Source of the DNA: Amia ocellicauda
Lineage: Eukaryota; Chordata; Actinopteri; Amiiformes; Amiidae
DNA length: 64,000 bases
Assembly (NCBI RefSeq): GCF_036373705.1
Contig: NC_089855.1
Span: 3,372,501 to 3,436,500, forward strand
Direction of reading: 5' to 3'
Position numbers and translations under genes: made by a program. This document shows, in pieces, positions 28,539 to 43,664 of the stretch. Positions within the stretch are counted from its first letter, which is position 1. Every line of letters starts with the position of its first letter. The notes beneath the pieces were generated by a model. The model ran no database searches. It was not told the origin of the DNA and saw nothing but the letters and a program-made list of their open reading frames with translations.

Positions 28539-29120
28539 GAAGAATTGGTCAATCAGCCCATGAGAGAGACGGTGTGCAACCAAAACCTAGGAGAGCTTAG
28601 AGGAGGACAGCGTAGAGAACTGCTAACCGCAGATAAGGGCATGCACAACCCATAGAGACACCCCAAGAGCTAGCTGCTGGACAACGAATTGGACAGTGAA
28701 GGCTCAGAGGGTGATGGGAGGGCAGTTGAGCACCAGAGCACCATCATCATGCCCACTCCCATCCTGAAGAGGGAGGTAGTTATAACAGGAGACTCAATTC
28801 TTAGAGGTGTAGATCACACAGTGTGCTCTAGTAATAAGGAGACCCGCATGGTATCTTGCCTGCCTGGTGCTCAGGTTGCAGATCTCCCTAAACTAGTAGA
28901 CGGGCTACTGGTCAAAGCCGGGGGGAATCCACTGGTCATGGTCCACATTGGAACAAATGAGATAGGAAAAGGTAGGGCAGAGGTTCTGCAAGACAAATTT
29001 AAAGAGTTAGGAACAAATCAAAAGAGCAGAACCTCCACGGTAGTTTTCTGTGAAATACTTCCGGTAACACGTGCCAGGCCAGGGAGACAGGCTGAGATTA
29101 GAAAGTTTAACATGTGGTTG
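28539..29120 (+). mobile_element. CR1 LINE copy B, piece 2: ORF1 esterase, cut by the Polinton
   Basis: 28,689-29,120 reads the esterase blocks VITGDSILRG and VHIGTNEIGKG. The CR1 sequence stops at TGGTTG (29,115-29,120) where the Polinton begins, and resumes after the second TGGTTG at 43,659. Compared with copy A, the join across the Polinton is exact. Confidence 0.85.
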
Positions 29121-29433
29121 AGTAGAATCGGGGGTGCCATAGGCGTTTCCAGATATTTTATGGCATGTTACATCACTTGTTTATAATACCTACGTCATAT
29201 CCGGACGGAAGTGTACACCCATAGCGCCCTAACCCCCCACGATGAACCTGATGACCCCCTGATCCTCCTGTCCTTCTCTCTCCCCTAGCCCCCTACCTCC
29301 ACCCACACTGATTAGTTCTGCAGGCCTTTGTTCTTGCCGGAGAGTGTGAATGTTCAGAGTGTGAATGTTTCAGGTCCTGGGGGTTGTGACCCCCCCCCAT
29401 TAAGTTAGAATAGCTCCATTGTTTCAGTAATAG

Positions 29434-29491
<58 letters not shown>

Positions 29492-29842
29492 CTCTCTCTC
29501 TCTATCTTTTTTTATCTTGTTGTGAATTCATTCTTTTTTTAAACACCTTCTAGTAAAGGCCTTCTAACTGTCTTAAAAGTTCATAATATTTAAACTTAAG
29601 ATATTGTTCAATTTCTTAACAGTCCCTTATCCTGGCTTACAGATGTTATTCAATTACTCTAGCCCTCTAAGTAAAGTGCTTAGGGGGAAAGTTTTTTTTA
29701 ATTTATTTTAGCTCTCTCTCGCTCTCCCTCTCTCTCTCACGAAATGCATAACGTGAAGTCTGAGTTTAAAATGAATGCTGGGTAGTGGGTCCGGAGCCGC
29801 CAAGGCCACTCTCTTCTAAGAGGGCAGGTTATCGTGACGTGA
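29121..29842 (+). repeat. Polinton left terminal inverted repeat
   Basis: It aligns by eye, inverted, with 42,885-43,658. It contains a TATC microsatellite at 29,435-29,505, and a CRE-like GTGACGTGA lies at its inner end near 29,834-29,842. It is about 50 bp shorter than the right repeat because of an indel near 29,640. Confidence 0.9.
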
Positions 29843-30543
29843 TTCACAACGAGGGGGTGTAGGGGTGTGAGTGGGTTGTGTTTTATGCTAATAGTGCCCT
29901 AGAGACAGGGGCTGCCTGCTTGTTGAAATCAAAATAATCTAATCATTCTAATCGATATAATTTATCAAACGTGTATCAAAAGGCCAAATAACTCTTTTGT
30001 CTGATCTAAACGCTTTCTGATTAGTGGCTACACGTTTTGATACCAAACACACCTGTGTCCCGTCAATAACCTGGGCTGGACCAGGAAGTAATTTTAAACA
30101 TCCCGAGGCTTAGATAAAGCTGTTGTTGAAATAATGTTTTTAAAATGCTAAACATCCTATGCTCTGTCTTTAGACTTAAAAGATAAAACAGGTCCCCTAA
30201 AACAATGAACAGAAATACAACGGTTAGCTAGAAGTCTTTTGTATATAGTATTATAGGTCCTTTCTTTGAGCTTGGGGTAATTGTTAGATCGAATAAACTG
30301 TTGAAATAGTCTTAGATCGAGTTTCTATAGGGCTAGCTGTTTTATTTAATTAATTTTAAGTTTTTTGTACTTAGCCGCTGACATAAAACCTTTTTTTTTT
30401 TTGGACATCGAGCCAGGGGAGGCGCCACCTTGGCGCTCATTTGAATTATGCCGCCTAGAGAGCTGATTAGTTGTGGGTGTTTAACAAGGCGACTGAAAGT
30501 CTGGGGGGTGCCCCAGAAAATTGACCCCCACCGCAGATTCATA
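29843..30543. other. Polinton left non-coding region
   Basis: No ORF is supportable between the inverted repeat and the TATA-like motif of the six-exon gene. It holds an imperfect inverted GGCGCCACCTTGGCGCTC stretch near 30,421-30,438 and a T-run at 30,391-30,402. Confidence 0.5.
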
Positions 30544-30556
30544 GGCATAAATATGT
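30544..30556 (+). promoter_or_regulatory. TATA-like box of the six-exon Polinton gene
   Basis: GGCATAAATATGTGG lies about 90 bases upstream of the ATG at 30,636, leaving room for a start site near 30,575-30,580 and a short leader. Position relative to the gene is the only support. Confidence 0.4.
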
Positions 30557-30635
30557 GGTTAGGTCTCCGTCTTGATGCATCATCTGGACCTCCCGAGTGA
30601 AGTGAAGTGAAGACCTCTGGTACTGAAGAACTACA

Positions 30636-32341
30636 ATGGCCGGAAACAGCATCACAGACTTCGACTTGAACGAATTTTTCGGTAAGTCTTCAGATTCCTT
30701 TCATTGTTATGTTCTGTGTTATACACATGTTTTGTAAATAAGGATATAACCTCTGTTTTAAGAACTGTAACCTTATTTTACAGACAGTCAACAATCTTTA
30801 ATACCCAACGCGGAGGCTATAATTTGGAACGGCTCTGTGATTAACGAAGGTAAGCTTTAATTGTTTGTATAGGAGCTTGTGTGTGTGTGGGTGTGTGCAC
30901 GCGTGCATTGCTGTGTTTGTGCTTTAAGTTAGCTGTTTGTTATATATATGTTTGTTAATGTTTTGAATTAATTACACAGAGGTTACCGAAAGGATCAATG
31001 TTATCGAGATACTGAGAGAAGCCACCGTCCCTATACGAGAGATCTACAGACTACGTAAGAACTAAATTATCTTACATCACATTATCGGTACTTAATTGTC
31101 CCCTTTTATACAGCGGGGTCTTTCATAGTTTCATAATTTTTTTTCTTTTTTTTTCTTTAACAGCTCTAAGAAACGTGGTCCTAGACAACGAGAGACCATC
31201 CACTTCCAGAACGTGTTTAGTTTTACCATCAAGAGCAAGCAACTTTCAAGAGTCTGAAAAACAAAAGAAACGACTATTCGCTGAGGGTCAGTAATGTCCT
31301 TCAAACTTTAAGTCTTAAAAGGGTTTTGTTTGTTTGTACCACTGAGGCTTGATGGGTATTTTTATTTTTGGGTGGGCGGGTGTGTTAGTCTGATTCATGG
31401 ATAGGTTGTGTGGAGAGTCTTGTAGATGACATGCTGGGGCATGTAGCATGGCATTGTTTAGAAATGTTTGTTTGAACACTCAGTTGGTTGTGAAATTAAG
31501 CTTACCGTCACAGATGTTTTAGTGAGTTTTTTGTAATATCTACAGTTATTTTGATAGTTTAAGATGTATAGAGATGTTTGTAAATTTTTTATACGTGTTA
31601 TTATTATTTTTTTAGATGGTGAAAACACTCCCGAACCAGGAATCTCCGGGGTCAGGCGACGTTTAAACTTGGAAGGTTTGTTTAAAAGCGAAATGTTGTT
31701 AGTGGTCTATAAAGCTGTGTTATGATTTTTTTTTAGAATTTTATAGAATCGTTTATTATGAGTTTATTTACTGTTTGTATTTTATGTTGTTTTTACATGG
31801 TTCATAAGTTTTATAGCGAGCTGTATTTTATTGAGTTATAGCCTCAATGTGTTTTGTTTGTTCCTAAGGCTAATTTTCAAAGGTCTAAAAATGACCCTAG
31901 CATAGCGTTTAAATCATTTGATATAAATTAAGAGTTTGGCTGTTTCTGTCGCCTTAATGTTTAAAGATCTATATGTGATACTTTTTTTTTTTTCGCACAT
32001 CCTAAGACTTGTGGGACAGTCATTCCGTCGATGATCTTTTGGGTGCGATTACTCCGACTAACTGGGGGGGAAACCCTGACGCCGCCAAGATCGCTGAGAG
32101 GAACCCCACCGATACATCTGGAGACACCGCCCCACCAGCGTGGATCACTGCAGTCCACGAGACACCCAGAGACACCTCCCCATCAGCGTGGATCAACGCT
32201 AGCCAAGGCTGGTTCACCCCGCAACGCCAGGCGGGATTCAGCAGTGTTCAGTCCGGCCCGTTACCGAACACAGAGAGGTACCCCCCGGCCGGTCCTGGAG
32301 ACACCACAACACCAGCTTGGACCACCGCTAGTCGGTGGTGA
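30636..32341 (+). CDS. Six-exon Polinton gene of unknown function (34 to 43-codon tandem repeats in last exon)
   Basis: Exons, inferred from GT/AG sites: 30,636-30,681; 30,784-30,849; 30,980-31,054; 31,164-31,286; 31,616-31,675; 32,007-32,341. Each donor is good (GTAAGT, GTAAGC, GTAAGA, GTCAGT, GTTTGT) and each acceptor follows a T-rich tract. Every intron is phase 1 and the internal exons are 66, 75, 123 and 60 bases, all multiples of three; the joined frame has no stop until 32,339, giving 234 codons. The exon 4 and 5 products carry basic KKRLF and RRRLNL motifs. Exon 6 begins a tandem repeat with a period of about 129 bp. No homologue or domain is recognised. It occupies the slot between the left inverted repeat and the polymerase. 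Confidence 0.7.
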
Positions 32342-32795
32342 ATCACCCCTCAACGCCAGGCTGGTTTCAACCGCGTTCAGTCCACCCCGTTACTGATCGC
32401 CGAGAGGGACCCCACGGCCGGACCTGGAGAGTCCTCAACACCCGTTTGGATCAGCCTGAGTCGGAGCTGCTACACCACCCAACGCCAGTCCAGTTTCATC
32501 GTCACTCAACCCGCCCTCGATCCTGTATCCAAGATACAGGAGCAGTACCCCTGCCTACGCCAGATTACCCCCAGGTTTTTATGGGTCACCGCTCCCGACT
32601 CCACGATTGACCCCTTCAAATCCCGGACGGTATCCGCCGATGGGTGGTGATCTACTGAACCATCAACCCTATAGACCCGCATCGATAGACGAACGCCCGG
32701 ATATAATCCCACAAGTGGCGCGTGCACAAAGCCTGGCTATAGAGGGTCAAAACATTATTATTAATACAGTTAATAACGCCATAGATCGAAATTAA
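32342..32795 (+). other. Continuation of the six-exon gene's repeat region, probably former coding
   Basis: The 129-bp repeat (CAACGCCAG words at 32,222, 32,351 and 32,480) continues past the TGA at 32,339-32,341, and the same frame stays open for another 102 codons to TGA at 32,648. A different frame (about 32,607-32,795) ends in an Asn/Ile-rich tail. This suggests the gene was once longer and the current stop and a frameshift may be lesions, but an alternative 3' exon is possible. AATAAA signals follow near 32,847. Confidence 0.45.
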
Positions 32796-32870
32796 TGTTT
32801 TATTAGTGGTAAAACGACTCGAAAGTGTGGGATGTGCTGTTGTGTAAAATAAATAAATGAATAAACAAAA

Positions 32871-35735
32871 ATGTCTGGACATGGTAAAAGAGCTCACGAA
32901 CCGAATGATTATGATAGAGCTCAGTCCCCAAAAAGACCATCCAGAGAGAATGGAACCGTTCATGTCGAGAACTCAGCCAGCAATCCAATCAACCCGGAAC
33001 TATTGCAAATGGTAAATGATTTAAATAACAGACCCTTACCCCCGATAGAGTTAAACACCCTGTCCCCTCCTGATTTGGTCGAATTGCCACTGAATTCCGA
33101 CCTGTTGCAAATTGTTAATGATATAAATAACCTACCCCTGCCAATGTCTCCTATAGAGCCCCAGCCCCCATTACACCCTGATTTACTTGAAATGGTTGAT
33201 GCTTTGAATGAGCTACCCTGTACAAATTCTGTCCCTGTTACAAATGAATTGGGGCCATTAGAACACCGGGGTTCTGCTGAAGCAGCCGGCGCTATAGAGC
33301 AGGATCTTGACATTAACCGGTTTGATATCTTTGAAGGTCTTTTACAGGCTTTAAATGAGATTCGTCAAAATGGTGGCTTTGCGGGTTGTGGGGGTGATGT
33401 GGAGGGATGTGATACTGATAAAGTGGTAGAGGGCAGGCTCGATGAGAACACGTGTAGTGAGGGTTTTGGGCAAACTGTTGACAATCCTAAGACGATCGTT
33501 GAACCAGTGATTATAGATAGACCGGCCTATAACAATTTTGAAATTATGCAGTGTTTTAATTTTGCAGAACATTTCAATTGCGATAATTATGCTGAAATAT
33601 TCGTCAACATACACGATGCCTTGCAAAGCATGATTGAGCGGGTGGCTGAAAGGGTTAGACCTCGAGATGTTGTCCTGTTAGAACTGAGGGATGGGGACAA
33701 CAAAATCTGTTTTGCGTACAGTTTAATAAAACTGATCAAACCCGACACCCCGGAACCCCAAGCACTGCAACAGGCCTTAATGCTTCATCAGAGTGTCGGA
33801 TTGACCGACCAACAGATGGTTGCCTTTTCAGACATCTTCAAGTTTGATGAGAAATTGTCTTTAAAAATTGTGGTGTGGTACCGGTGTGTGATAAATGACG
33901 TGTTTTTGAAACTTCAGATGCATTCTGAACCCCACGAACAGACGCTGTTTCTCTTATTTAATGATAGTCATTACTTTGGAATTAAGAGTTTGACGGCTTT
34001 TTTGAGTTGTTCGTACATTTGCCCCTTCTGTTATGCTGCATTCAACGATAAGCTTAAACACTGATGCGCCGGTTACTGCAATGTTTGTTTCAGCCCCCAG
34101 TGTCGTAAGGGATTGTCCCCCACCATCCGCTGTAAAGATTGTTAAAGGATTTGTCTCTCAGCGTTCTGTTTTTCTGAGGATAAGGTGCCGAGGGTTAACA
34201 GCGAGGGTGTTGAACTGAGCACCTGCGATCAAACAAAATATTGCCCCAAATGTTGTTTCCAATACCGGTTTCATAAGGGCAAGACCCACAAATGTTCGAA
34301 ACAGCAGTGTCCGCTCTGTAAGGTAGACCTAACCCAAATGCCGAACACCAATGTTTTATCCAGTCTGTTAAAAAGGAGCCACTGCATAAACTGTATGTCA
34401 TTTTTGATTTTGAATGTCGCCAGGAAAAAGGGGTCCATGTGGCTAATTATATACATTGTATATACATGATGGATCGCGAGTGGGCGGCCAGCGGTGTCAG
34501 TGCTTTCTTTATAAAATACCGTAGTCTGAAATACCTCAATTACACGTTTATTGCACACAATGCTAAGGGTTATGATTCTTACCTTTTGATTAAGTATCTG
34601 GTGGAGAACGGGGTGACCCCTAAAATTAGGGGGTGCGTGTCTTCATGGAAACCTTTGACTTTCCAGAACGGCTCGAACCCCGGGAGGCATTATTTGGGGG
34701 TCGGACCAACGCCATCTGTTTACATTATTAGGTAAAGGCGGGGGAGAGAGTAGATTACTATGACTTCACTAGCTTGTACCCGTTTGTCAACAAGACTAAA
34801 ATGTATCCCTTGGGACATCCAAACATTATTTATCACGACTTTCTCGACATCAGTCATTACTTTGGCTTGATCAAATTGACCGTATAGGTGTCTGGTGTAG
34901 CGTTGAGCTTGACAAGGCGGTGGAAAAAGGTTACAGAGTCGGTAACGTGTATGAAAAATCTGATACTCTTTTTGCCGATTACATTATGACCCACCTGAAA
35001 GGGAAGCAGGAGGCCTCCGGCTACCCCTCTTGGTGTGCTGACGATGCGGACAAAAAGCGTTAGGTTCAGCAATATTATGAAAAGGAATGGATTCAGCTGG
35101 ATCCGTGTAACATAATGGTAAACCCGGCTAAAAGACAGATGTCCAAACTGATATTGAACAGTCTGTGGGGTAAGTTTGGGGAGATAAATAACCGTCTAAA
35201 TACCACCTTGATTAAAAACCCCAAACAAAGTTTATAGAATTCATGTTTTCCAAAGAACACGATGTAGCCCACCGAGTGGCCCAGGTGCAATGGCGGACCC
35301 TAAAGATTTCCCCACCTGACAGGGTAACGTTAATGTGTTTATTGCGATTTTTACCATGGCTTACGCCCGGCTTGAACTGTACAACATAATGGACCAACTA
35401 CAGGAGCGCACGCTCTATCATGATACTGACTCTGTGATCTTTCTCACCAGGCCGGGGGATTGGGTCCCGCCCTTCGGGGACTACCTTGGGGAGTTAACGA
35501 GCGAGCTTTATCCTCAGGACCACATAGTGGAGTTTGTTTCAGGGGGACCAAAGACTTAGGGGGACTAAGGGGATCACTCTGAACCATTGTAACAACAAAA
35601 TCATTAACATTAAATCTCTGATGACCCTGGTCCAAAGTTTTGTAACCGAAAAAGACGCGCCTCCTCATGAGATTATTACTTCCGGAAACTGAATCTATCG
35701 GAAAATAAAAAGGGTTACACCTTGGAAAAAGTCGC
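32871..35735 (+). pseudogene. Polinton protein-primed DNA polymerase B, decayed
   Basis: In the family this enzyme replicates the linear element using a protein primer. The first 397 codons (32,871-34,064) form the N-terminal extension and end in a CPFC zinc-like motif. An in-frame TGA at 34,062 and TAA at 34,143 interrupt the following Cys-rich region. A frameshift near 34,370 precedes the exonuclease DFEC block, and the second exonuclease block (HNAKGYDSYL) is at 34,550-34,590. Polymerase motif A (DFTSLYP) is near 34,761, motif B (KLILNSLWGKFG) near 35,146 and motif C (YHDTDSV) near 35,417. Only about 60 codons separate the second exonuclease block from motif A, far less than usual, so an internal deletion is likely. 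More stops and shifts follow. Confidence 0.85.
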
Positions 35736-35804
35736 ACTATTAATTTAAACGCTAATTATATAATTATTTTTAAAAATCCCAGAGATAAACTACAGGTTAC
35801 CGTC

Positions 35805-35990
35805 TTGGCTCGTCAAATGTACCCCAAACAGACAAAGTTCTTTTTGGAGGCTTTTGAGGACGCTACCAAAAAACCTTACGGGTACTTGCTCGCCGACTTA
35901 AAAGCACAAACCCCGGAAGACTTTTGTCTCAGAACAGGTTTGTGCCCTCCAGATTGGCCGGCCGTGTATGTGCTAAAGAAAAGGAAATAA
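35805..35990 (+). CDS. Small Polinton protein, unknown function
   Basis: A short frame of up to 61 codons begins at or before the ATG at 35,817 and ends KKRK at 35,990, six bases before the next gene's ATG. It contains QTKFFLEAFEDATKKPYG and a CPPDWPAVYV segment. The position, between polymerase and the next gene and on the same strand, suggests it is a genuine small gene or the end of a longer one whose start was lost. I do not recognise a domain. The upstream frame may extend to about 35,783. Confidence 0.45.
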   Translation: MARQMYPKQTKFFLEAFEDATKKPYGYLLADLKAQTPEDFCLRTGLCPPDWPAVYVLKKRK

Positions 35991-35996
35991 ATAAGC

Positions 35997-37088
35997 ATGT
36001 CTGTTTGGATTAAAAGAAATCTACCACTTTTGCAGATGTTATTTGAGGGGAACCCGTGCCAGAGGAAAGCTGTGCTGGCCACGGCCCCTTCGGATTTGAT
36101 AGAGTCCCTGTGCGAAATAGCTTTAAACATCTTGTGTGGAACCATATCCCCTTCTAAACTCAAAAAACAAAAAACGGCTATCAAGATCATCGCTAATAAG
36201 AAGTATTCTATTAAAAGAAAAAGAAAGAAGATCGAGATCGGTTTAATAATGGAACCTGCTCGGAAAATGTTTTTGGTCCCTCAGGAGCAGCTTGAAAAAC
36301 TGAGAAAAAATGTTGCCGGACCAGAAACCCTCAGACAAACTGTCGAAAATAACTTGGACTCTGAAATGAAAGCTATATTAGCCAGGGTTGATTTAAATCA
36401 GCATTTCAAAACCCAATTGTATAGTGCCACGTTACAACGATATCTCCGTCTGGTTCGGCAGGGGGAAAAAGATTACAACACCTTAACTTTAAACATGGCC
36501 TCTCAAGAAAACGGGGTTGCGGCTGAGGGGACAGTGGCTGATAAGGGTTTTGATGCTCAGCCCTCTGTCATAGCGGATACCGAGCCTGTTGAGGGTTTTT
36601 CCTCCTTGCCAGAGGTCGATGTTGTAACCGATGTTTTGAGAAACATGCCTTCCAGAAGCAAAATAAATGCTGAATATATCCTGCACAAAATGGTTCAGAA
36701 ACCGCAGGTAACGGCTTGGAATGAACAGGGTGAATTTGTTTTTAAAGGACAATTGATCAAAGGATCACATATGTTTGATCTGTTGAAGAGTGTCACTAGC
36801 ACTAATAAGATCCCTGCTAGCTGCAGACCTGTAGGCTGGAATTCTTTCCTACTTGCGATGGCCTGTCTGAACATTCCCCAATCAACAGTGCCTAACCAGG
36901 AGACACGCCAAAAAATACACATGTGTAGAGAGGGGGAGGGGCTGAATGGGGAGCTAAAACCCCAACTGCTCATTACACTCTTCGTCGGGGGTCAGGTTGA
37001 ATCCGTACAGCGTGTAGCCGCTGCAGTATTCCTGGCGATTGATCATCAGAGGTTGATCCTTGATCCCGTAGCCAATACTAGACTGTAA
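35997..37088 (+). CDS. Polinton protein of unknown function, two-part
   Basis: An open frame of 363 codons. The first 80 or so residues are hydrophobic/helical and end in a strongly basic KRKRKKIEIG stretch. A new Met at about residue 84 begins a second part (EPARKMFLVPQEQLEKLRKN, then DVVTDVLRNMPSRSKINAEY and RPVGWNSFLLAMACLNIPQS), which has the look of a protein common in fish Polintons whose function I cannot name. Two originally separate genes may have become fused. The last 45 or so codons run antisense through the 3' end of the major capsid gene, so the true end is probably near 36,950. Coding remains open, unlike its neighbours. Confidence 0.55.
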   Translation: MSVWIKRNLPLLQMLFEGNPCQRKAVLATAPSDLIESLCEIALNILCGTISPSKLKKQKTAIKIIANKKYSIKRKRKKIEIGLIMEPARKMFLVPQEQLEKLRKNVAGPETLRQTVENNLDSEMKAILARVDLNQHFKTQLYSATLQRYLRLVRQGEKDYNTLTLNMASQENGVAAEGTVADKGFDAQPSVIADTEPVEGFSSLPEVDVVTDVLRNMPSRSKINAEYILHKMVQKPQVTAWNEQGEFVFKGQLIKGSHMFDLLKSVTSTNKIPASCRPVGWNSFLLAMACLNIPQSTVPNQETRQKIHMCREGEGLNGELKPQLLITLFVGGQVESVQRVAAAVFLAIDHQRLILDPVANTRL

Positions 37089-37248
37089 TATTCCCGAACA
37101 TTTCTGTTTTCAAAGTCCGGTTGAAAAGGCTTGGACGGCACCTGCACGCCGTCAACATACAACGCTATAAATTCTGCGTTATAATGTTTAAAGTTAAAGG
37201 GGTTCTTGTTGTAAACCCCGGTAAAGGCATCATTATCCACTAGACCTA

Positions 37249-38468
37249 CACTCACCTAAAGGATTATTAGGAACACCTGTTCAATTTCTCATTAATGCAA
37301 TTATCTAACCAACCAATCACATGGCAGTTGCTTCAATGCATTTAGGGGTGTGGTCCTGGTCAAGACAATCTCCTGAACTCCAAACTGAATGTCTGAATGG
37401 GAAAGAAAGGTGATTTAAGCAATTTTGAGCGTGGCATGGTTGTTGGTGCCAGACGGGCCGGTCTGAGTATTTCACAATCTGCTCAGTTACTGGGATTTTC
37501 ACGCACAACCATTTCTAGGGTTTACAAAGAATGGTGGAAAAGGGAAAAACATCCAGTATGCGGCAGTCCTGTGGGCGAAAATGCCTTGTTGATGCTAGAG
37601 GTCAGAGGAGAATGGGCCGACTGATTCAAGCTGATAGAAGAGCAACTTTGACTGAAATAAGCACTCGTTACAACCGAGGTATGCAGCAAAGCATTTGTGA
37701 AGCCACAACACGTACAACCTTGAGGCGGATGGGCTACAACAGCAGAAGACCCCACCGGGTACCACTCATCTCCACTACAAATAGGAAAAAGAGGCTACAA
37801 TTTGCACAAGCTCACCAAAATTGGACAGTTGAAGACTGGAAAAATGTTGCCTGGTCTGATGAGTCTCGATTTCTGTTGAGACATTCAGATGGTAGAGTCA
37901 GAATTTGGCATAAACAGAATGAGAACATGGATCCATCATGCCTTGTTACCACTGTGCAGGCTGGTGGTGGTGGTGTAATGGTGTGGGGGATGTTTTCTTG
38001 GCACACTTTAGGCCCCTTAGTGCCAATTGGGCATCGTTTAAATGCCACGGCCTACCTGAGCATTGTTTCTGACCATGTCCATCCCTTTATGACCACCATG
38101 TACCCATCCTCTAATGGCTACTTCCAGCAGGATAATGCACCATGTCACAAAGGTCGAATCATTTCAAATTGGTTTCTTGAACATGACAATGAATTCACTG
38201 TATTAAACTGGCCCCCACATTCACCTGATCTCAACCCAATAGAACATCTTTGGGATGTGGTGGAACGGGAGCTTCGTGCCCTGGATGTGCATCCCACAAA
38301 TCTCCATCAACTGCAAGATGCTATCCTATCAATATGGGCCAACATTTCTAAAGAATGCTTTCAGCACCTTGTTGAATCAATGCCACGTAGAATTAAGGCA
38401 GTTCTGAAGGCGAAAGGGGGTCAAACACAGTATTAGTACGGTGTTCCTAATAATCCTTTAGGTGAGTG
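37249..38468 (+). mobile_element. Tc1-like transposon #2, inside the Polinton capsid gene
   Basis: Ends CACTCACCTAAAGGATTATT and AATCCTTTAGGTGAGTG, with the TA target duplicated at 37,247-37,248 and 38,469-38,470. Size 1,220 bp. Nearly identical to #1, so both are recent. Confidence 0.95.
37397..38436 (+). pseudogene. Tc1-like transposase (copy #2), one frameshift
   Basis: The N-terminal helix-turn-helix part reads from 37,397 and passes FSRTTISRVYKEWW. The rest (about 37,540-38,436) is a single open frame with WSDESRF (first Asp), QQDNAPCHKG (second Asp) and SPDLNPIEHLWD (Glu), the DD34E catalytic triad, and ends KAKGGQTQY. A frameshift around 37,535-37,550 separates the two. Apart from that shift the gene looks complete, so it decayed recently. 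Confidence 0.85.
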
Positions 38469-39329
38469 TATAATAACCTGTTCTGGGAGCTGCCCTAGAA
38501 AAATATTTTCTTGGTCCATCACCCGTGTCCCCGCGGGGATACTGTGGACTTTCATATAGAGCCTATCTATCGGGTACTTGGCATTTGCCGTCATTAACCC
38601 CTGCGTGTGTCCTAGTTTAACTGCTGGGGATACGGACACTTTTTTCACGAACAGCGAGGCCGATAATATATTCAGTTTAATTTTTTCAGTATCGGGAGTC
38701 ATCAGACAGAAAGCATTTTTGCTCCGTATCATTTTAATTTTAATGTCTACACCGTTGAGCATGAGTTTTTCTTGAAAAAATATGTCCGCATGAATATGCC
38801 CCATTAGCTCAAAGGTCCGGCCTTCGGCTGAAAAGGCTGCTCTTTTTTGCAAACCCTCATTGAGTCCATCTGTATCCCTGTCATCCATAGCTTCTGGGGT
38901 GTCTTTGAAGAACAGGCCAGGACTGAACTGCTTGCTTAGAGTCTCCTCACTATAATTAAGGATACACTCCATCATGGCTCTATAGGGGTAGGTATTGCTG
39001 CTTTGACTAATGAGTCGATCACCCAGGGTCAAGTCCACTTGCGAAAACATGGTGGCCACAGGGTAAATGATGACACCAATATTGGCTGCCTTCACTGTTG
39101 CATCCCCATCCTCCTCATCCAGTCTGCTGTTGATTAAAATGACAGTGTTGTTCAAATCAATATAATCTTCCCCATTTCCTGCTATGAAAAACTCCAGAGG
39201 GGCCATTTCTGAAATTGCGGCAGAATCTCTACATGCTTTTATCTATACTCGTTTGGGTAAACGGGACTGTAAACAGGTCCAGTTCTGATTTAACGCATTC
39301 TTCCGATAGGCTATGGACAAAAGACATGT

Positions 39330-39626
39330 TTAAAAGATGTAACCTGAGGTTCTATTGGTCTTTCTTTGAGACTTTCTTTTTGCAGGTTTTCTCTTCTGTT
39401 GCTTCCTTCTCCGAGGGTTTCTGTGGTGTGTTGGAGAATGAGCGAGTCTTCGTTTTTTGTTAGCCGGGGGTCTTCGCTGCCCTGGTGGGCGTCTGCTGCT
39501 TCTTCTTTTACCCCCGCCCCTCGACATCACCATGAGTCCCGAACCCTCCTGATGCTCATGGCTAGCCGAGCGGTTCATAACATTGGCGAACACGTCACTA
39601 ACAATGTTTTTAGCCACTGATTTCAA
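39330..39626 (-). CDS. Small basic, core-like Polinton protein
   Basis: A 98-residue frame with a helical start (KSVAKNIVSDVFANVMNRS), then RGGGKRRSSRR and a very Arg/Lys-rich second half (RRRKQQKRKPAKRKSQRK). It overlaps the end of the penton-like gene by 17 bases and precedes the capsid gene, the usual place for small DNA-binding virion proteins in these elements. A role in condensing DNA or as an entry peptide is inference from composition and position. Confidence 0.6.
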   Translation of the reverse strand: MKSVAKNIVSDVFANVMNRSASHEHQEGSGLMVMSRGGGKRRSSRRPPGQRRPPANKKRRLAHSPTHHRNPRRRKQQKRKPAKRKSQRKTNRTSGYIF

Positions 39627-40359
39627 GTGGGGTCTGGCTATAGCAAAGCCTCTCTTTACCGAAACAGAATGGTACGTTGATATTCTGATCTGATTTTACT
39701 TCGATTGTGATGTTGTCAAAGTGTGTCTTTGAGACTGGTACGTAGTGCGGCTTGTCATAAGTAATTGTGATCATGTCATTGCTTTTACCTTTAATAAGTA
39801 CATTTCTCAAAAGAGGAACGTAACTATTACCGACCCTCTGGTGGGCAATGATGTCCATATAGATGTAAAGAGTGTATAAACCACCCCTGATATCGGCCGG
39901 GAAGGGAGCCACCACGTCTGAGAATGAGTTCTCCGTGTCGGTATAGAAGCCTAATATACGTCTCAGGGCCCCGCTGGTTTGAATACTAATGCCAGGTTTT
40001 GACACAATGTACACTCGGTTTTTAATAGAATTGTAATATAACTTGAGGGAGGGGTTCCTGTCGGAGAACTGCTTATTCATCTCATCTAATATTTTATCCA
40101 CACTGTCGTAATAACCCCCTTGGATCGTGAATGACCACTGATTCTTTTTAACATGATCAAAAACTGAGAAGTTGGCATCCTTATCTTGTAAAATAGACCA
40201 AGTGTAAGGATACTGTATTTCCGCCAAACCCACTTCCCATGAACCCCTTAGATCTATAGATTTTCCAAATTGCACTGTGTAACTGGATATTTCATTTTTA
40301 GTATATATATCGAGAGAGGAGTTACTGGGTAGAGTCACGTAGAAGCTGCCTGATTCCAT
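39610..40359 (-). CDS. Polinton minor capsid (penton-like) protein
   Basis: A 250-codon open frame. I chose the ATG at 40,359 because the family start resembles MESGSFYVTLPSNSS; an in-frame upstream TTG is less likely. Blocks seen are WEVGLAEIQYPYTW (about residues 50-65), a glycine-rich GGYYDSVD, and the later LYIYMDIIAHQRVGNSYVPL. These match the single-jelly-roll minor capsid proteins of Polintons, which occupy five-fold vertices. The length fits the family, and this is one of the few virion genes still open. The last 15 or so residues look altered, perhaps by a late frameshift. Confidence 0.75.
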   Translation of the reverse strand: MESGSFYVTLPSNSSLDIYTKNEISSYTVQFGKSIDLRGSWEVGLAEIQYPYTWSILQDKDANFSVFDHVKKNQWSFTIQGGYYDSVDKILDEMNKQFSDRNPSLKLYYNSIKNRVYIVSKPGISIQTSGALRRILGFYTDTENSFSDVVAPFPADIRGGLYTLYIYMDIIAHQRVGNSYVPLLRNVLIKGKSNDMITITYDKPHYVPVSKTHFDNITIEVKSDQNINVPFCFGKERLCYSQTPLEISG

Positions 40360-40422
40360 CTTGAGAAACAAAAGTAATGCATCCCCGGACAACCGCGGGC
40401 ATCTTGTTCTAAGGCTTGAATA

Positions 40423-41472
40423 TCACAAACCTGTTGCTCTATTGAACTTTTCAGGCCAACCTCTCCATTGCACTAACACATATTTTTTCCGGTTTTGGGT
40501 TTTTTCCGCTAAAATCTTTTCAACTCTGAATACTCTATCTTTACCCAAAATATTTTTTTGTAACTCGGCCAAATAAAACATCCCTTCTATTTCCTCCCCA
40601 TCATAGTCTTTTAACCGGTTCACAGGGGGGTCTCTAGCCAACTGCTCGGTAACTGTAAAATATTCATCAGAAAATGGCAAAAGGGTTGCACAGCTTTGAA
40701 ACTCTCACCACATCCCCAACATTGAACTTATAAGTAGTTTTTTCTGTCTTAATAAAGGGACCGTATACATTTTTATATAGCTTAAAAGAATTAAAAGAAT
40801 TACACTTGTTAACATCTATAGGCTTCACTTTAATGCTGGTGTGATATCCTCTGTTGTAAGTAAAATCCTGAACTTTATCAACATACTTGAACGTGTTGAC
40901 AGCTGTAAAATATCTCCACATATTTGTCTTTATGGTGCAGTTAAACCTCTCTACAACCGATACCTTAAGCTCATTACCGGTGGTGAAATTATGTATATTG
41001 TGTCTCTTCAACAGATTCTGAAATTCTCTGTTGAGAAACTCTTTTCCTTTATCAGTCTGCAGTTTTTTAAGACACCAACCCTGGGACAATATATCCTCAA
41101 AGGCCCTTGTCACCACACTACCTGTTTTATTGCGCAGAATGCGGATCCATGCGTATTTCGATAACACATCGATGCACATCAACATAAATTTGTGACATTG
41201 TCATGTTTTGATAAATTTGACATATCGACTAGATCCATCTGCTATTGTGAGTCTATGTTAGTCACATAGACATGATTTCTTTTAAAGTTAATTCTGAGCG
41301 GTTTATGTAGGGTATAGGCATCTTGTGCCCTTAGCCATTCTGAAACAACATCATCCTTAGCCTTAACCCCAGCCTCAGCGAGTCCTCTTTGAAAACCTTT
41401 CTTACCAGCCAAACCACCGGCCTTGGCCGGGTTGTAGTACAGATCCTTCTTCTGGGGAGCTTGCCAAGTCAT
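40423..41472 (-). pseudogene. Polinton integrase with C-terminal chromodomain
   Basis: The N-terminal part (41,472-41,242) has DLYYNPAKAGGLAGKKGF and RAQDAYTLHKPLR, typical of Polinton integrases, and ends at an in-frame TAG. A frameshift near 41,185 leads into the catalytic core (41,185-40,667) with CIDVLSKYAW (first Asp), QTDKGKEF (second Asp) and VVERFNCTIK (Glu). Another shift near 40,675 leads to a chromodomain, FRVEKILAEKTQ...YVLVQWRGWPEKFN, near 40,440-40,530. Such a domain is known to direct some integrases to modified histones. The protein is inactive because of these three lesions. The second and third catalytic residues are intact in sequence. Confidence 0.85.
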
Positions 41473-41786
41473 TCTGTCAGATCACACAACACAATGAGCA
41501 AAGTTTTTTAAACATGTTTTTTTTATTCCATTTCAGGCGAACAAAAACATTTTCAACGATCCAGACAAAAAGAAATCAGATGATTGATTACTTGTTCTAT
41601 ATCGACAACGACATGGTTTTTTATCTTGTAGGCACACACATTGGTTACATACACAAATAAAACAACAATATGGGCTATTTTAAAAGTAAACTAAGGTTTA
41701 TTAAACATGATCAGTAAAAGTTCATACAGATAATGGTGAAAAGGACTAACATCCTTCTCGGCGCCCTCGACCATCTCACTCCAGTT

Positions 41787-41978
41787 TTAGTACCCCCCTG
41801 TATCTGTTACAGTGGCCATTAACTTTTCCAGGTTTGAAAGTTGGTCATCATCTACGGTTAAATCTGTAGAGAAAAGGCTCGCATTGGCTACTTTTTTGTC
41901 AAGCACATGGTATAATAGAGCTCTCAGGCTATCCACTGAGTGTTGATGGCAGATCCAGTTGCAGAAGCAGTCTTCCAT
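41787..41978 (-). CDS. Small Polinton ORF (63 aa), unknown
   Basis: A short frame with CFCNWICHQHS near its start and an acidic centre (DLTVDDDQLSNLEK). It begins 18 bases after the stop of the next upstream gene on the minus strand, compatible with a compact gene cluster. No domain recognised; it could be a spliced exon of a larger gene. Confidence 0.4.
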   Translation of the reverse strand: MEDCFCNWICHQHSVDSLRALLYHVLDKKVANASLFSTDLTVDDDQLSNLEKLMATVTDTGGY

Positions 41979-41995
41979 CTTCCAGGTCCCTCAGT

Positions 41996-42520
41996 TCAGT
42001 CAGAGTCTGAATCGGTGGCGTAGAGCTCAAATTCTTTGCAGGTCTCAGCTTTAAATTCTCGGAAGAAATACTGTTTTAGCTTCCCGGCGGTTTTTCTACT
42101 CGGCTCATCCAGGTCATTGAACAGCTGATCAAGTTTCTCTTTTATAGACGGCTCATTTTTCAACTCCAGCAAAATCTCATCTATGATTTTCTGGACTTGC
42201 CCGGAGGTGGCCCGCAGGTGGGAGTAAGATAGTGCCTTGATTAGTGCCGGCTTCAGCCACGGTTTGTTCAGTCTTCTGTAAATCACATCGAAATAGTATC
42301 GGAAATAATAGGCCTCTGGTTCAAACAGACAGCTGTGCCTCAACTGGCTGGGGTGATTCACTTCACAACCCTGACAGACTGGTTGTGAAAATTCAGTTTG
42401 GTCGATGAGAACCGACAGAATATACACCAGGGCGCTTTTAACAACTCTGATTACCTCGACTCGCACGCCGGGCATAAAGCCATCGTCTTCATCACGCCCC
42501 TGGGGCGGTTCACAGCTCAT
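41996..42520 (-). CDS. Polinton protein with CxGCx3HPSQx2HxCL motif, unknown function
   Basis: An open frame of 174 codons. The middle part has VCQGCEVNHPSQLRHSCL (about residues 47-65), a tight Cys/His set likely to bind metal. Around it are an aromatic-rich helix region (EAYYFRYYFDVIYRRL) and an acidic tail ending SDSD. It lies close to the right inverted repeat and is transcribed leftward like the capsid genes. I do not recognise a named domain. Its position and small size suggest an accessory, probably early, gene. It is intact. Confidence 0.6.
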   Translation of the reverse strand: MSCEPPQGRDEDDGFMPGVRVEVIRVVKSALVYILSVLIDQTEFSQPVCQGCEVNHPSQLRHSCLFEPEAYYFRYYFDVIYRRLNKPWLKPALIKALSYSHLRATSGQVQKIIDEILLELKNEPSIKEKLDQLFNDLDEPSRKTAGKLKQYFFREFKAETCKEFELYATDSDSD

Positions 42521-42549
42521 TGGGTTGCTCGGAGGGCTGTGGGTTGTTT

Positions 42550-42837
42550 CTACAGCCGCCGGATGCCCCCTTCCTGAGACGAGTCCACGATAGACAGTGC
42601 AGCAAACGCTGTACCGTTCAGGAGCTCCTGAGCCTGTACACCCCAGAGACCAGTTTCGACGTCCATCGCAAAGGGTCCTGTTTCGTCTTGCGGAATCGGG
42701 GGTTGAGGGCCCGGAAGGTGGCCGCAGTCAGAGGTTTCGGGCATGTATACAAAATCGGGTGAATAGAACCAAGGTAGATCCCGGGGTTGGAGAGGATTGT
42801 AGAGCCTGTTGACATCCATAGCTTTCGGGTAAGACAT
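42550..42837 (-). CDS. Small Polinton ORF (95 aa) next to right inverted repeat
   Basis: Starts ATG 42,837, 48 bases from the inner edge of the right inverted repeat, with YNPLQPRDLPWFYSPDF in its first third and proline-rich stretches. It ends RRL at 42,550, 30 bases upstream of the next ORF, so the two may belong to one transcript or be exons of one gene. Function unknown. Confidence 0.45.
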   Translation of the reverse strand: MSYPKAMDVNRLYNPLQPRDLPWFYSPDFVYMPETSDCGHLPGPQPPIPQDETGPFAMDVETGLWGVQAQELLNGTAFAALSIVDSSQEGGIRRL

Positions 42838-42884
42838 TCTCTTTAAACATTGATCGGGGGGTGATGCGCTTTTAGTCTCTTTAC

Positions 42885-43285
42885 TACGTCACGATATCCC
42901 GCCCTCTTAGAAAAGAGTGGCTTCGGCAGCTCCGGACCCACTACCAAACCCCCCAGCATTCATTTTAAACTCAGATTTCACGTTATGCGTTTCGTGACAG
43001 AGAGAGAGGGAGAGCGAGAGAGAGCTAAAATACATTTAAAAAAACTTTCCCCCTAAGCACTTTACTTAGAGGGCTAGAGTAATTTAATCAGTTCTAAAGA
43101 TAAAGAATGTAAGAAAATAATGTGGTATATCGTAACATTTGTAAGCCAGGATAAGGGACTGTTAAGAAATTGAACAATATCTTAAGTTTAAATATTATGA
43201 ACTTTTAAGACAGTTAGAAGGCCTTTACTAGAAGGTGTTTAACTAAAAAAAGAATGAATTCACAACAAGATAAATAAAGAGAGAG

Positions 43286-43343
<58 letters not shown>

Positions 43344-43658
43344 CTATTACTGAAACAATGGAGCTATTCTAACTTATTGGGGGGTGGGTCACAACCCCCA
43401 GGACCTGAAACGTTCACACTCTGAACATTCACACTCTCCGGCAAGAACAAAGGCCTGCAGAACTAATCAGTGTGGGTGGAGGTAGGGGGGATAGGGGAGA
43501 GAGAAGGACAGGAGGATCAGGGGGTCATCGGGTTCATCGTGGGGGGTTAGGGCGCTATGGGTGTACACTTCCGTCCGAATATGACGTAGGTATAATAAAC
43601 AAGTGACGTAACATGCCATAAAATATATGGAAACGCCTATGGCGCCCCCCATTCTACT
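42885..43658 (-). repeat. Polinton right terminal inverted repeat
   Basis: Inverted counterpart of 29,121-29,842. It has a GATA microsatellite at 43,279-43,341, an extra segment near 43,095-43,145 not in the left repeat, and a CRE-like CTACGTCACG near 42,884-42,893. The last bases ATTCTACT mirror the first bases of the element. Confidence 0.9.
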
Positions 43659-43664
43659 TGGTTG

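Follow-up and report, generated by a model that had tools for sequence, protein, structure and literature searches.

Can a Maverick/Polinton in a fish genome carry a spliced gene of its own? In the accessible part of the 2021 study by Barreat and Katzourakis (PMC8097293), vertebrate Mavericks/Polintons have eight conserved ORFs, all intronless, and genes of intact elements showed no introns, in line with Kapitonov and Jurka 2006; that part also describes accessory regions flanking the core modules and mentions no spliced gene there. A sequence-only reading of a 64,000-nucleotide stretch of Amia ocellicauda DNA (hereafter the window) had claimed a spliced accessory gene directly beside the left inverted repeat of such an element. 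We compared this locus with its relatives elsewhere in that one host genome (988 Mb, 385 contigs) and conclude that it very probably is a genuine accessory gene, spliced and coding for protein, that belongs to a lineage of fish Mavericks/Polintons.

The element occupies positions 29121-43658 of the window (14.5 kb). Its terminal inverted repeats, at 29121..29840 on the plus strand (first bases AGTAGA) and 42886..43658 on the minus strand, are 88% identical and are flanked by a perfect 6-bp duplication, TGGTTG, at 29115..29120 and 43659..43664. An rve integrase core with a chromodomain lies at 40423..41200 on the minus strand (Pfam; rve E 2.7e-8, Chromo E 6.7e-6). By its inverted repeats, 6-bp target site duplication and chromodomain-bearing integrase, the element is a Maverick/Polinton. 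The N-terminal part of the PolB frame lies at 32871..34064 on the plus strand. The PolB of this copy is frameshifted from 34064 to about 35990, and in its fragmented state matches DNA_pol_B_2 with an E value of 0.0031, below the curated cut-off; Pfam returned no OTU-like domain at the PolB N-terminus (32865-34064). The ORFs at 38433-39242 and 39610-40422 we provisionally take to be those of the major and minor capsid proteins; neither has a significant Pfam match, nor has 38433-39242 a significant PDB match. A frame at 37397-38436, presumably a Tc1-like transposase, abuts the first of these. The right accessory region (41787-42837, minus strand) holds three small, overlapping or adjacent ORFs that are apparently intronless, and its stop-to-stop frame 41996-42727 has no Pfam match. 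The left accessory gene departs from the intronless rule for vertebrate Mavericks, with five predicted introns (six in a sister group); the published rule covers the genes of intact elements and the eight core ORFs, so these introns touch the rule and not the membership of the element.

The gene is on the PolB strand, flanked on one side by the left inverted repeat and on the other by PolB. Six exons with GT/AG borders, at 30636..30681, 30784..30849, 30980..31054, 31164..31286, 31616..31675 and 32007..32341, join to 234 codons plus a stop (705 nt). Their lengths are 46, 66, 75, 123, 60 and 335 nt and all five introns are phase 1, which confirms the first description at its exact coordinates. 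Exon 1 holds the start ATG. Exon 4 ends in KKRLFAE and exon 5 holds VRRRLNLE, both cyclin-docking-like, whereas exon 3 is the least conserved exon between groups; exon 6 as first reported runs to an in-frame stop that falls within a repeat array whose unit is 129 bp (43 codons). The donors of introns 1-5 read GTAAGT, GTAAGC, GTAAGA, GTCAGT and GTTTGT, and every acceptor is AG. Because all introns are phase 1, any internal exon could be skipped without a change of frame. The flanking signals that had been claimed are both present: a TATA-like CATAAATA at 30546..30553, starting 90 nt before the ATG, and overlapping AATAAA signals at 32848..32865, just 5' of the PolB ATG. Transcription by host RNA polymerase II would begin just downstream of the TATA-like box, and the six exons (seven in the sister group) would then be joined by the host spliceosome.

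A chain of open segments of this kind might also arise by chance in non-coding DNA. When dinucleotide shuffles were searched with crude splice-site rules, any six-exon, all-phase-1 chain appeared in 13/300 and one of at least 702 nt in 0/300; under the same loose rules, however, 2 of 25 control stretches elsewhere in the window reached 702 nt, and the real stretch itself had as its best chain one of 822 nt, not the reported one. The crude rules thus fail to single out the reported chain, which by itself is rare but only suggestive, and we dropped it as proof of a gene. The reality of the gene is decided by relatives in the same genome rather than by chain statistics.

The nearest relatives form a family to which the window copy belongs. 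We aligned the window with 20 loci, taken from at least 97 match rows (several rows per locus); most of a cluster at C2:52-63 Mb was left out, as were L004 and L008, which duplicate L009 and L010, and L025-L028 were unused. At C2:52.6-63.5 Mb, 14 loci of the window family with a similar match pattern, in which most of exon 4 is unmatched, are spread over 11 Mb of one contig. Across the 20 copies, the splice dinucleotides were the same as in the window in 147/155 cells, compared to 1781/2154 for other GT/AG in intron cores (Fisher p 1.6e-5, a generous value given that related copies were treated as independent). Indels of up to 60 nt shared by at least two copies were likewise partitioned: exons 1-5 had a single one, a multiple of three, and exon 6 had one that was a multiple and one that was not, while the introns had 18 non-multiples and 6 multiples. 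For nucleotide variants shared by at least two copies, the nonsynonymous/synonymous ratio in the proposed frame was 0.40, against 0.78 for singletons (p 0.047), which mostly represent decay after insertion; the ratio for shared variants was 0.62 and 1.21 in the shifted frames and 0.64-0.92 in the introns. Mean pairwise dN/dS in the family was 0.53, near the low end of the intron controls (0.57-1.24). Among the 20 aligned copies, none was established as complete and open across the whole gene; complete copies come from a more distant group.

A search with the PolB N-terminus returned at least 204 matches, including loci 55-66% identical to the window, and several of these diverged relatives have open PolB frames of up to 1417 aa. 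From these matches, 20 diverged loci were picked to span the identity bands, and the 4.6-4.9 kb upstream of each was examined for the exon peptides. Peptides 1, 2, 4, 5 and 6 were matched in 15/20 loci (E <=0.05), L029 matched exons 2, 4 and 6 only, and the remaining four (L030, L034, L036 and L037) matched only the 3' exons; the exon-3 peptide was matched in one locus, L031. An automatic order check flagged 4/20 loci because it used the earliest match of each peptide. L034, L036 and L037 have nothing that matches in the place of the first exons (L036 was read by eye).

L032-L048, whose PolB N-termini are those 55-66% identical to that of the window, constitute a sister group with a seven-exon gene. 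In L041 its exons measure 46, 54, 84, 123, 54, 60 and 602 nt (1023 nt in total), all introns are phase 1, and a TATA-like TATAAGTA starts 73 nt before the ATG. The gene is open end to end in 9 of the 17 copies and encodes 340 aa. The additional intron falls inside exon 4 of the window family, so that exon 4 of the window has its counterpart in portions of exons 4 and 5 of the seven-exon relatives. Clusters of sister-group PolB N-termini with equal or nearly equal scores and a stop-free matched part occur at C25:1.3-2.2 Mb and on C42, C372 and C79, suggesting recent amplification or segmental duplication.

Comparison between the two groups reveals the signature of coding constraint. In 140 codons aligned between the window and L041, first, second and third positions differed 28, 31 and 52 times (p 0.0006), an excess at third positions found in the proposed frame only. 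In that frame pS was 0.50 and pN 0.20, a ratio of 0.40, compared to 1.14 and 1.04 in the shifted frames and 0.69-1.27 in intron frames. Exon 5 showed no synonymous excess (pS and pN both 0.25), and the signal was weak for the nearer pair of the window and L031 (17/18/22; ratio 0.57 versus 0.76 and 0.99 in shifted frames and 0.47-1.53 in introns). Within the sister group (14 of the 17 copies, without L034, L036 and L037), the ratio for shared variants was 0.62, with controls of 1.74 and 0.58 in shifted frames and 0.59-1.21 in introns; over all exons of 14 copies pS was 0.055, pN 0.035 and dN/dS 0.63. Nine of the 11 conserved blocks between the window and L041 overlap an exon, and seven of these nine cross an exon border. 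Two stretches of intron are also similar: intron 1 (30682-30783), at 75% identity, equals exons 4 and 5 and may contain a regulatory element, and a block in intron 5 (31866-31893) is 79% identical, far from the splice sites. The alternative of one unspliced ORF was rejected, as the exon matches in L041 switch frame and are separated by 88-318 nt that do not match. With exon borders, frame and codon-position pattern all conserved across groups, a chance chain is extremely improbable, and conservation among Polintons of this genome lends good support to the claim of a spliced accessory gene beside the left inverted repeat.

The end of the gene at 32341 is not the natural one. The window frame stops at 32339-32341, within the repeat array, but copies that keep the exon-6 acceptor continue in the same frame through the array. 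Last exons were scored in the window and 18 copies (L019 and L023 were omitted as too short). With the acceptor kept, L018 and L021 terminate where the window has 32793, their C-terminus being NAIDRN, and L014 halts two codons short of that point. L007 encodes the same C-terminal segment and stays open beyond that position; L009 also terminates at it, but the beginning of its exon 6 is missing. In the remaining 13 scored copies the stop comes sooner or lies in a different frame. The remainder of the natural last exon, comprising the array and a C-terminal segment ending in NTVNNAIDRN, thus corresponds to 32342..32795 on the plus strand (stop 32793-32795). The window copy encodes this segment in a different frame from exons 1-6. 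Given the longer frames in the copies and this shifted segment, the 234-aa product is a truncated form. The position of the natural stop also bears on whether the small exons are alternative 5' exons spliced into the PolB message, with no separate gene. They are on the same strand and the PolB ATG is within about 80 nt of the natural stop, as this idea would have it, but the last exon of related copies stops ahead of the AATAAA cluster and a new ATG, which makes such an arrangement very improbable.

What the product might do is less certain. It has no match in Pfam or PDB, and searches of IMG/VR viral contigs found no relative of the two-group product alignment, of either capsid ORF or of the PolB N-terminus, and 0 matches to a DNA pattern for exon 4; a PolB fragment matched one locus there, over 15 residues. 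The lack of a Pfam or PDB relative is one of two points against the gene having been captured, introns included, from a host gene of phase 1-1 exons whose job it would keep in some version; the other is the age of the gene, which predates the split between groups sharing 55-66% identity in the PolB N-terminus. A plan of six or seven symmetric phase-1 exons does resemble the architecture of a cellular gene, while the neighbouring PolB reads as one long frame in relatives (up to 1417 aa). We consider such a capture unlikely; it concerns the origin of the gene and is compatible with the spliced accessory gene that we favour.

The layout of the product comprises short conserved islands, a variable array and a conserved C-terminal segment. 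Over the first 160 residues the two groups have the same residue at 91 of 139 aligned positions, and these cluster in short islands (DFDLNEF, LIPNAE, LRNVVxDNERPSTS, EKxKKRLF, GxRxRLxLED and WDSHSVDxLL). A contrast of 49/55 identities within islands against 42/84 outside them was dropped as a measure of constraint, since the islands had been picked by eye from the same alignment and the argument was circular. Ser, Thr and Pro make up 26-28% of residues, and judged by composition the natural product is probably disordered. These properties speak against a role in replication, for example as a distinct terminal protein serving a protein-primed PolB, since they are unlike those of a folded priming protein. 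The gene is directly upstream of PolB on the same strand, and the adenovirus terminal protein and polymerase messages are spliced, both of which would suit that role; on balance we regard it as improbable. Instead, we lean towards the product being a regulator, and hold the combination of a spliced gene and a regulatory role with the same mild preference.

Two of the islands suggest how such a regulator could act. KKRLF and RxRLxLE fit the RxL/Cy pattern ([RK]xL with a hydrophobic residue at +1 or +2), lie at corresponding places in both groups and are each preceded by basic residues; RxL-like motifs of this type resemble those of E2F1 and p21. Decayed copies of the window family mostly retain the first site and more often show changes at the second. 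Two or more RxL-like patterns also occurred in 15% of shuffled versions of the window product and 63% of those of the L041 product, and because of this high chance rate cyclin docking by these sites is possible but doubtful. If it occurs, the product would be a nuclear hub-type regulator whose two motifs, lying beside basic residues, bind cyclin-CDK, and this binding would tune the cell cycle for replication by PolB. The accessible parts of two herpesvirus studies describe comparable motifs: the criterion for HCMV pUL21a (PMC4231158) was an RxL core followed at +1 or +2 by a bulky hydrophobic residue, and beta-herpesvirus kinases have NLS-RXL modules in which RXL/Cy follows basic residues (PMC7518283). 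Binding was measured for those proteins, whereas the Polinton product is known by motif and conservation, and we claim no kinship.

With respect to the wider implications, vertebrate Mavericks have been reported as intronless, so this gene, and perhaps others in the accessory regions, would escape pipelines that rely on long ORFs. A gene spliced by the host would imply a nuclear phase that draws on the spliceosome as well as RNA polymerase II, a point that matters for the question of whether Mavericks act as adenovirus-like nuclear DNA viruses, and the gene is a testable candidate for how Mavericks handle the host cell. A more ambitious reading, which we think distinctly unlikely, is that Mavericks carry an alternatively spliced multi-exon hub gene in the position of E1A. 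Each symmetric phase-1 exon would then supply one or two short motifs, and skipping would mix cyclin-docking and other modules, giving adjustable control of the fish cell cycle.

Among known elements, vertebrate Mavericks as described in the accessible part of PMC8097293 share with this one the two gene modules on opposite strands, the terminal inverted repeats, the 6-bp target duplication, an end motif close to (AGT)2 and the accessory regions beside the core modules; unlike them, the left accessory gene here has five or six predicted introns. Adintoviruses share PolB, an rve integrase with a chromodomain and an animal host; the N-terminal OTU-like domain that marks their PolB had no Pfam match here. 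The available text of a preprint (PMC11071296) mentions, for most species associated with mammals, candidate oncogenes or anti-apoptotic homologues and describes no spliced gene of such a plan. Titles and abstracts among the matches listed contained no spliced accessory gene in vertebrate Mavericks, which fits such a gene being undescribed there in the literature surveyed, Starrett et al. 2021 apart. Unlike the pocket-protein binders E1A and E7, the product has no LxCxE motif (by eye, in both the window and L041 forms) and no sequence match within Pfam and PDB. Adenovirus E1A is encoded at the left end and spliced, and E1A and papillomavirus E7 are hub proteins characterized by disorder and short motifs. 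The Polinton gene shares with E1A its left-end location and predicted splicing, and its product shares with both E1A and E7 a probable disorder and the use of short motifs.
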